DNA from: Streptomyces sp. NBC_01262
Lineage (GTDB): Bacteria; Actinomycetota; Actinomycetes; Streptomycetales; Streptomycetaceae
Direction: 5' to 3'
DNA length: 64,000 nucleotides
NCBI RefSeq assembly: GCF_036226365.1
Contig: NZ_CP108462.1
Coordinates: forward strand, 5,719,501-5,783,500
The position numbers were made by a program, and so were the translations under genes. The notes beneath the pieces are model-generated. The model searched no databases. It was given only the letters and a program-made list of their open reading frames with translations, and had not been told where the DNA came from. Positions within the stretch are counted from its first letter, which is position 1; the number at the start of each line of letters is the position of its first letter. This document shows positions 30,500-64,000 of this stretch, one piece after another.

Positions 30500-30577
30500 A
30501 AAAAAGGACAACCCGCGGGCTGCTCCCCGGAGCCTGGGCTCCGGGCACCGGCCGAACGTACCGGCGAGCCCGCGGGT
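30500..30577 (-). terminator. intrinsic terminator of the small RNA unit
   Basis: Outer 11-bp perfect stem ACCCGCGGGCT (30511-30521)/AGCCCGCGGGT (30567-30577) encloses smaller hairpins (for example CCCGGAGC/GCTCCGGG). On the minus strand it is followed by UUGUCC and a run of six U (30505-30500). U tracts are rare in this genome type, which makes this convincing. It may also serve pdxH from the other side. Confidence 0.75.
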
Positions 30578-30636
30578 CGGATGACTGCGTTGGATTTGGC
30601 CCGTCGCGCACAGCGCCACAGGCAAGGTGCGCGGCC

Positions 30637-30675
30637 TTAGCCCGCAGCCACCTCACGCGTCCGAGTGCTACTCAT
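30637..30675 (-). CDS. 12-residue micro-ORF in the small RNA
   Basis: ATG 30675 to TAA 30637 encodes MSSTRTREVAAG. An almost full-length anti-16S match (AAAGGAGG) lies 11 nt upstream. Too short for homology inference; translation is predicted only from the ribosome binding site. Confidence 0.45.
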   Translation of the reverse strand: MSSTRTREVAAG

Positions 30676-30708
30676 TCTCGGGACCACCTCCTTTCGTGTG
30701 TGCTCGAT

Positions 30709-30737
30709 ACCTTAGGAAGCGATCCCGAGCATCACAA
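30709..30737 (-). promoter_or_regulatory. promoter of the small RNA unit
   Basis: Reading the minus strand: TTGTGA (30737-30732), a 17-nt spacer and TAAGGT (30714-30709). Both hexamers and the spacing fit a strong HrdB-dependent promoter. The predicted start is near 30702. Confidence 0.7.
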
Positions 30738-62639: not shown

Positions 62640-62839
62640 GAATGGTCGCGGTTGGGGGAAACCTGTGGAGGATCGTACGAGAGTGAAAACCGGGGCCATT
62701 CCGGCGGATCTCCGTGGCGTCGCGTGCTTTGCCGGCGCTCGCGGCGCCGACGGCGCGGCGGGTCAGGCCTTCTCCCGCGGCGATCCATCGGAGGATCCCT
62801 TGGCCTCCGGTCCTGAAGTACACCCGGGAAGGGGTTGAT

Positions 62840-64000
62840 CTATCGACGGGCGACTGCCCTGGCGATCCGTTCGGCGTCGATGGCCATCTCGCGGAACATC
62901 CCGCTGATGGGGTTGGTGTAGCCGGTGAAGAACAGTCCGGGTGCTTCCTTGGGGGTCCGGGAGCCGTGCACGGTGGGGCGGCCGCGCTCGTTGAGGACGC
63001 CGAGGTGGCCGACCAGCGGCTCCAGGCCGTTGCGGTAGCCGGTCGCGGCGATCACCGCGTCCGGGGTGATGCGGGAGCCGTCGGCGAGCAGCACTTCGCG
63101 GCCCTCGAAGCCCTCGACGGCCGCGACGGGCTCGACCGTACGGGCCTGGACGGCGGCGATGAGGCCGACGTCCTGGACCGGGATGGAGCCTTCGCGTACC
63201 CGCGAGTACAGGCCGTTGCCCGGGCGCGGCAGCCCGTACGCAGACAGGTCGGGGACGCTGATCCGCTCCACGTACGGGGCTACGCGGTCCACCAGCCGGG
63301 TGGGGAGCCGCCGCACCAGGATGCCGGTGCGCTGGGCCGGCCAGCCGGCCGTGGACCGCCGCATGATGTGCGGGGGAGTGCGGACGGCGATCCGCACCCG
63401 GGAGGCGCCGGCCTCGGCCAGGTCCACGGCGATCTCCGCGCCGGTGTTGCCGACGCCGACGACGAGCACGTCGCGGCCCTCGTAGGGCTTGCCGTTGCGG
63501 AAGCGGGAGGCGTGCAGCAGCTCGCCGTCGAATGTGTCGAGGCCCGGCCAGTCCGGGAGGCGGGGGGTGTGGTTGGTGCCGGTGGCGATCACGATGCTGC
63601 GGGCGGTGAGGCGGCGGCCGCCGGTGGCGGGCAGCGCCCAGCCGCCGGACCCGTCCGTCGCGCGCTCGATGCGGGACACCTCTATGCCGGTGGCGATGTC
63701 GAGGCCGTGGGCCTGCGTGTACTGCTCCAGGTAGCGGACCACGTCGTCCCGGCCGACCCAGCGGCCGTAGGCCCGGGGTATCGCGAAGCCGGGCAGGGAG
63801 GACAGCCGTCTGGTGGTGTGCAGGTGCAGCCGGTCGTAGTGCTGTCTCCAGGACGCCCCGACGGCGTCCGACCGCTCCAGCACGAGCGTGCGCACGCCGC
63901 GTCTGTGCAGTGCCGCCGCGGCGGCGAGGCCGCCGGGACCGGCGCCGATGACGATCGCGTCGGGCGCGGCGTCGGGTGCGGCGGGCGTGGCGGGGGCTGC
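62840..64000 (-). CDS. FAD/NAD(P)-dependent monooxygenase-like flavoprotein, N-terminus beyond the window
   Basis: At least 386 residues; the frame is open to base 64000, so the start codon is outside. Two dinucleotide folds are visible: the FAD site 'AIVIGAGPGGLAAAAALHRRG' near the edge and the NAD(P)H site 'DVLVVGVGNTGAEIAVDLAEAG'. 'VIATGTNHTPRLPDWPG' and 'VIAATGYRNGLEPL' are typical of the CzcO/FMO/YUC-like class. It probably hydroxylates a small lipophilic compound or performs a Baeyer-Villiger step. The ~200-bp gap to the synthetase promoter shows no further gene. Confidence 0.88.
   Translation of the reverse strand, partial: AAPATPAAPDAAPDAIVIGAGPGGLAAAAALHRRGVRTLVLERSDAVGASWRQHYDRLHLHTTRRLSSLPGFAIPRAYGRWVGRDDVVRYLEQYTQAHGLDIATGIEVSRIERATDGSGGWALPATGGRRLTARSIVIATGTNHTPRLPDWPGLDTFDGELLHASRFRNGKPYEGRDVLVVGVGNTGAEIAVDLAEAGASRVRIAVRTPPHIMRRSTAGWPAQRTGILVRRLPTRLVDRVAPYVERISVPDLSAYGLPRPGNGLYSRVREGSIPVQDVGLIAAVQARTVEPVAAVEGFEGREVLLADGSRITPDAVIAATGYRNGLEPLVGHLGVLNERGRPTVHGSRTPKEAPGLFFTGYTNPISGMFREMAIDAERIARAVARR

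Follow-up and report, generated by a model that had tools for sequence, protein, structure and literature searches.

Why should a free-standing RNA of about 200 nucleotides (nt), with a promoter and a terminator of its own, present a ribosome site in front of an open reading frame (ORF) of just 12 codons? The question is raised by a locus on the minus strand of a 64,000-nt stretch of Streptomyces sp. NBC_01262 (contig NZ_CP108462.1, positions 5,719,501 to 5,783,500; hereafter the window, in whose coordinates positions are given), from a genome that forms a single contig of 9,736,065 bases. A preliminary description of this DNA had listed a promoter, a Shine-Dalgarno (SD)-like leader, the 12-codon ORF and a terminator stem with six T between 30737 and 30500, as an unannotated unit that no gene follows on its strand. 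All of these elements were found on the minus strand, the next gene, pdxH, is indeed convergent, and the free-standing RNA of about 200 nt is borne out and conserved far outside the genus. The unit is not unannotated, however: in a cmscan search, 30701..30503 (minus strand) matched the Rfam family RF02471 (Ms_IGR-5, an actinobacterial small RNA, sRNA) over the whole model, positions 1-184 of 184, with 90.3 bits against a gathering cut-off of 45 and an E value of 7e-20. This is the sole Rfam match above cut-off within the window and the sole RF02471 match genome-wide. The locus is the Streptomycetaceae copy of Ms_IGR-5, a named family that is already known but uncharacterised. Based on a comparison of its members, we propose that Ms_IGR-5 is a structured RNA of the Actinomycetota that is selected for engagement by the ribosome, which would unfold its fold, making it a ribosome-gated switch, a reading to which we give a probability of roughly 55%.

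The comparison covers 133 members, 57 from a first sample and 76 accepted from 80 newly fetched phylum matches to R1, a model of the 5' 75 positions built from 26 members. The remaining four, L204-L207, scored 24.0-25.5 bits (E values of 5.8e-4 to 9.2e-4) and were excluded as false matches, L205-L207 being without the motif pair and L204 having the motif pair but not the ORF.

In the window copy, the SD-like leader GAAAGGAGGTGGTCC (30681..30695, minus strand) is complementary to the 3' tail of mature 16S rRNA over 15 nt. The 16S ends were sought with a pattern fixing GGATCACCTCCTT, which was present in 31 of 60 phylum genomes and not in the window's own genome, so that relatives supplied the tail sequence, including one from the same family (G023, L262). 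Following GGATCACCTCCTT, all 18 loci read have TCT and then A, and the complement in the leader ends at what we take to be the mature 16S 3' end. Counting contiguous Watson-Crick or G-U pairs with GGATCACCTCCTTTCT in 132 members (one of the 133 was skipped, its 5' end being cut), 16 bases pair in 121, 15 in ten and 12 in one. Non-pairing cells number 11 of 132 x 16, with eight at the first base, one at the thirteenth and two at the last, while the other variation in the leader keeps the pairing, with A or G opposite U and C or U opposite G. Before the starts of 44 predicted genes of the window, which were called crudely, the longest pairing with the tail is 3-8 nt, and the 15-mer of the leader, allowing at most one mismatch, has one occurrence genome-wide. 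The comparison shows a 5' leader predicted to pair along the full length of the mature 16S 3' tail, which is a new finding. Elsewhere in the window, the plus strand at 62826-62841 could likewise form 15 of 16 pairs with the 16S tail, partly through G-U, probably by chance. In 14 of the 18 16S loci (L257-L274), AAGGAG follows directly after the mature end; by folding back it could pair with CTCCTT, hiding the anti-SD as long as the 16S rRNA is unprocessed. The complement in Ms_IGR-5 covers the mature part of the 16S rRNA only.

The micro-ORF itself (30637..30675, minus strand) runs over 12 codons from ATG to TAA and would encode the peptide MSSTRTREVAAG. With the frame fixed via the stop codon near a GAGGTG motif, the first 57 members hold 0 stops in 637 codons, compared to 29 and 76 in the other frames. 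An ORF was scored when a start (ATG, GTG, TTG, CTG, ATT, ATC or ATA) lay 6-14 nt after GGAGG with the stop at its fixed place. This is the case for 56 of the 57 members of the first sample, where shuffled loops gave 14.2 ± 3.2 with a maximum of 26 in 1000 runs, and the exception, L022, starts with ACG; with ATG, GTG and TTG only, the count is 40 of 57 versus 7.0 ± 2.4. The second sample has the ORF in all 76 accepted members (76 of 80 with the false L204-L207 included), versus 19.9 ± 3.6 and a maximum of 32 after shuffling, and in 66 of 76 versus 10.3 ± 2.9 for the three stricter starts; L203, whose listed TTG lies 17 nt off, passes via another start. Once near-duplicates are removed, the ORF is present in 41 of 42 members of the first sample (shuffled loops, 10.6) and in 41 of 41 of the second (10.5). 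Both samples pooled, 132 of 133 members have an ORF started by NTG or ATH and one by ACG, where shuffled loops reach about 25%. The starts comprise 65 TTG, 31 ATG, 12 CTG, 10 GTG, six ATC, six ATT, two ATA and one ACG, the stops 101 TAG, 27 TGA and five TAA, and the length ranges from 10 to 17 codons, with starts, length and frame varying jointly across members. Eight more phylum matches, kept out of the 133, all carry the ORF, as do 68 of the 69 loci L059-L127, which in many cases come from the same genomes as counted members (the single miss, L080, shares its genome with L022), all 19 genus copies among these (L109-L127), and all 45 mycobacterial loci L208-L252.

Near the end of the ORF lies a second SD-like motif, GAGGTG (30649..30654, minus strand), 15 nt before the stop codon, which is likewise a new finding. 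Measured from the start of this motif, the stop follows after 15 nt in 117 members, 14 nt in 15 and 17 nt in one (n = 133), four members having GAGGTA instead. In the 15 members with 14 nt, the conserved RNA motif is read in a different frame, and the start codon matches that frame. The distance between GAGGUG and the last codon is compatible with holding the 16S tail.

How the ORF relates to the fold of the RNA is apparent from covariation. The 205-nt RNA folds better than 200 of 200 shuffles (z = -3.55). In the window copy, on the minus strand, the 5' helix P1 would pair CACG (30695..30698) with CGTG (30657..30654) within the ORF, in a register that appears shifted by 2 nt relative to the family; a pseudoknot would join CGGACG in the ORF (30658..30663) to CGTTCG (30553..30558), the loop of a hairpin within the terminator domain; and P3 would join GGTGGCTGC at the end of the ORF (30644..30652) to GCAGTCATC (30580..30588). 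In an alignment of 30 members (A1), P1, pseudoknot, P3 and the 3' stem have 89.4% of cells paired, with a covariation score of 0.375 versus 0.163 ± 0.011 after shuffling and at most 0.087 when slid by 1-3 columns, although the fold was derived from these same sequences and is thereby favoured over its slid versions. Pairs changed on both sides amount to three of four in P1, two of five in the pseudoknot, three of nine in P3 and nine of ten in the 3' stem. The three variable positions of P1 pair in 55, 55 and 52 of 57 members, with four to five pair types. When the members' own strands were compared with those of other members in 87 less related ones, the scores were 9.09 versus 3.48 ± 0.39 for P1, 17.76 versus 14.87 ± 0.33 for P3 and 12.01 versus 10.74 ± 0.28 for the pseudoknot, with a control stretch remaining flat (8.05 versus 7.88 ± 0.32). 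The key position of the pseudoknot, formed by the base that precedes GAY in the ORF and the one that follows GUC in the loop, pairs in 99 of 116 members (shuffles 65.9, maximum 78), and all four Watson-Crick ways occur; two neighbouring positions pair in 79 of 116 (58.0, maximum 71) and 67 of 116 (44.2, maximum 59). Covariation thus supports three elements that are new: P1, a pseudoknot from the ORF to a hairpin loop, and P3 from the end of the ORF to the region before the terminator.

The Rfam consensus of RF02471 instead pairs the SD region with the end of the ORF. That first helix (positions 14-19 with 55-60) pairs in 86.7% of cells, yet without a single two-sided change and no better than shuffles, in contrast to the covarying P1, P3 and pseudoknot. 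P2, a helix of our first model that joined the SD-adjacent GGUCC to GGAC of the ORF, was rejected because it has no two-sided change; GGAC instead covaries with the loop downstream. An AAUCC-type conserved element lies before the 3' strand of P3, in its would-be internal loop (30597-30589 in the window); 117 of 133 members fit a loose set of variants, a count made without a control, and it is a possible contact site for protein or RNA.

What would the ribosome do with this RNA? Most of the conserved features point to a ribosome on this RNA: the tail complement, a start placed in an AT-rich loop that varies, an open frame closed by a stop, and GAGGUG. Moreover, the ORF carries one strand each of P1, the pseudoknot and P3, and therefore a translating ribosome must open the fold. 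We propose that mature 30S subunits would be captured through pairing of the 16S tail with the leader, that the ORF would be translated, with the passing ribosome melting P1, pseudoknot and P3, and that the second SD-like motif would hold the ribosome for a time at the stop codon. The RNA would in this way alternate between its closed fold and a ribosome-held open form, tracking the supply of initiation-competent 30S subunits. As candidate outputs, the 3' half may be freed to act, the stability of the RNA itself may change, or 30S subunits may be tied up. A bolder extension, which we regard as speculative, is that, across the phylum, Ms_IGR-5 serves to read out the state of the small subunit, combining full tail pairing, a peptide-indifferent ORF in a pseudoknotted fold and a ribosome parked by the stop, and that it reports or buffers initiation-competent 30S subunits with intact tails.

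The preliminary description had suggested a dual-function sRNA or a ribosome-interacting RNA, and of these the interaction with the ribosome is well supported by the comparison, while the peptide half fared poorly: the ORF is kept and the peptide is not. A micropeptide acting in trans, as in SgrS/SgrT or SR1, would account for the conservation of the ORF and for its serine-rich first half. However, the members encode unlike peptides (MSSTRTREVAAG, LLKTSGGDCS, VSESGSTGSGGASG), with no residue common to all 133, and the Glu-Val of 117 members is present because the GAGGTG/A motif itself encodes it, being absent where the frame differs. Even the 19 genus copies differ by changes that include non-synonymous ones. 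The first codons are AT-rich (GC of 0.37, 0.53 and 0.34 at codon positions 1-3), mostly ending in A or T, and are unlike those of the window genes, where such codons are rare, AGT accounting for 2.8% of the Ser codons and GCT for 2.1% of the Ala codons over 40 predicted genes. The comparison hence points to a micro-ORF that is conserved phylum-wide and appears to be selected as an ORF and not as a peptide, a further new finding, and we rate a functional peptide low. We find it harder still to favour a serine-sensing leader, in which slow decoding of the serine codons would alter the downstream fold in the manner of an attenuator. It is in line with the overlap of ORF and pairing strands and with the serine codons of the first half, which number 108 of 407 compared to 36.5 ± 5.6 after shuffling, whereas the two other frames hold 14 of 340 and 27 of 331. 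This excess may stem from kinship and a shared AGU motif in the RNA, and although two serine codons are present in the window copy, six of the eight other Streptomycetaceae copies compared have none. Furthermore, the closest gene downstream lies on the other strand at this locus, as it does in 67 of the 115 members with a call (same strand in 48; simple ORF caller), and attenuation of a downstream gene was rejected at this locus, where pdxH is convergent.

The explanation that we rank second to the ribosome-gated switch, unlikely as we consider it, is a trap for 30S subunits: an abundant RNA would titrate free 30S through its full tail complement and idle them on a micro-ORF with a poor start, as a ribosome analogue of the action of 6S and Ms1 RNA on RNA polymerase. 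The 16-nt complement, the 27 of 133 starts that are CTG, ATT, ATC, ATA or ACG, and the 14-15 nt that separate the second SD-like motif from the stop in all but one of 133 members fit such a trap, which would nevertheless require an abundance near that of ribosomes and leaves unexplained why the ORF covaries with its partner strands in P1, the pseudoknot and P3. Somewhat more doubtful is an ordinary antisense-type sRNA that pairs with mRNAs, in which case the ORF would only load a ribosome, for stabilisation or clearance of the RNA; an own promoter and terminator and a single copy are what one would expect, but neither the 16-nt tail complement nor the near-fixed distance to the stop would follow from it.

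Several points weigh against the ribosome-gated switch that we prefer. Ribosome capture and switching are predictions from sequence comparison, and the serine enrichment leaves room for a role at the level of amino acids. The members were found by models that include the leader, GAGGTG and the stop region, and conservation there was in part selected for, although the open frame and the matching start were no part of hit selection; moreover, the members are related by descent, so that the shuffle controls overstate significance. A start 7-13 nt past GGAGG may be reached with a partial 16-nt duplex. As for the pseudoknot, 17 of 116 members do not pair at its key position, another 17 of the 133 were left out of that count for having no GAY or no hairpin with GUC, and compact forms (e.g. 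L187, L193, L197, L198) are without the pseudoknot hairpin. Lastly, the ribosome footprints reported on MS_IGR-5 in Mycobacterium abscessus and M. smegmatis speak for our reading, yet the same authors caution that footprints are common on non-coding RNAs (PMC4974804).

The compact form, seen in L179, L183, L185, L187, L193, L197 and L198, has a loop of 22-26 nt, the stop at +14, no visible pseudoknot hairpin and a hairpin directly after P3. In the window copy, the 3' hairpin domain and intrinsic terminator occupy 30500..30579 (minus strand), with six T at 30505..30500. Six other loci (L023, L025, L026, L028-L030) have an extra strong hairpin beyond the 3' domain, partly followed by T, and in their lineages the conserved domain is probably not itself the terminator. 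At the other end, the promoter (30709..30737, minus strand) consists of a -35 box TTGTGA (30737..30732), a 17-nt spacer and a -10 box TAAGGT (30714..30709), with similar boxes kept in the genus copies. A generic promoter scan of the locus reported nothing, because TAAGGT is too distant from TATAAT for that scan. Among the 130 of 133 members with enough upstream sequence, TANNNT occurs at the correct distance in 58, versus 0-2 at four shifted positions. Judging from promoter and U-run, transcription would start at 30701, and the RNA of about 200 nt would span 30500..30701 (minus strand).

The RF02471 model finds the family in 57 of 296 phylum genomes at E <= 0.001, 26 of which are above the curated cut-off, whereas R1 matches 145 of 396 phylum genomes (four of the weakest being false). 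Within the class, R1 has matches in 192 of 296 genomes, and within the genus in 34 of 35, including all 33 of good quality. The RNA is nearly always single copy per genome, with second matches in G057 and G224. A mycobacterial version of the pattern retrieved 45 stretches, all titled Mycobacterium, Mycolicibacterium or Mycobacteriaceae. A phage origin was considered for four pattern matches in viral contigs and rejected, since the 190-200 nt or so around each lack the family leader and look chance-like; one of these, L254, reaches 22.2 bits with R1 (E = 1.6e-4), a score below those of the false L204-L207.

At our locus, pdxH (PF01243/PF10590) is convergent and a gene with a PAS domain divergent. 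Across 202 loci with short flanks (the 133 members and L059-L127, with genomes partly shared), tblastn detected pdxH at 36, the PAS gene at 37 and the citrate synthase gene at 40, the 19 genus copies having them in 19, 18 and 19 cases, respectively. In L003, which carries the mycobacterial pattern, a class-IV aminotransferase gene precedes the RNA, in L007 the RNA is followed by a gene with a THAP4-type heme-binding domain, and in L175 and L190 it lies beside a GCV_T-domain gene; we presume these to be relatives of Rv0812, Rv0813c and ygfZ.

Earlier work agrees on transcription of relatives: the Streptomyces lividans relative SLIV_16488 is marked as transcribed (PMC8079986), that of S. avermitilis is an sRNA transcription unit (PMC8780764), and M. 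smegmatis IGR-5 is overlapped by the transcript ncMSMEG15794c (PMC10454040). Our literature search for Ms_IGR-5 and RF02471 returned neither a function nor the ORF, with the original description (Li et al. 2013, RNA 19:74) outside its reach, and IGR-5 is absent from the searched text of Tsai et al. 2013 (PMC3828370).

How does Ms_IGR-5 compare with known systems? In leader-peptide attenuators, a short ORF overlaps RNA pairings, so that translation must alter the fold. Ms_IGR-5 is alike in this overlap, but differs by its own terminator and the convergent next gene at our locus. Like the dual-function sRNAs SgrS/SgrT and SR1/SR1P (PMC11133741), it is a regulatory-type RNA with an ORF; unlike them, its peptide is not conserved and its ORF strands belong to the conserved fold. 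With 6S RNA and Ms1 (PMC4191392), it shares that a single RNA may occupy a core machine, which for Ms_IGR-5 would be the 30S subunit, via the 16S tail.

At the least, the comparison provides RF02471 with an anatomy and a proposed corrected structure as a basis for later work, and with the prediction that selection keeps the ribosome reading the RNA, not the peptide. If this is true, many Actinomycetota, including Streptomyces and mycobacteria, would carry an RNA coupled directly to mature 30S subunits, and Ms_IGR-5 would be a candidate regulator of translation capacity.
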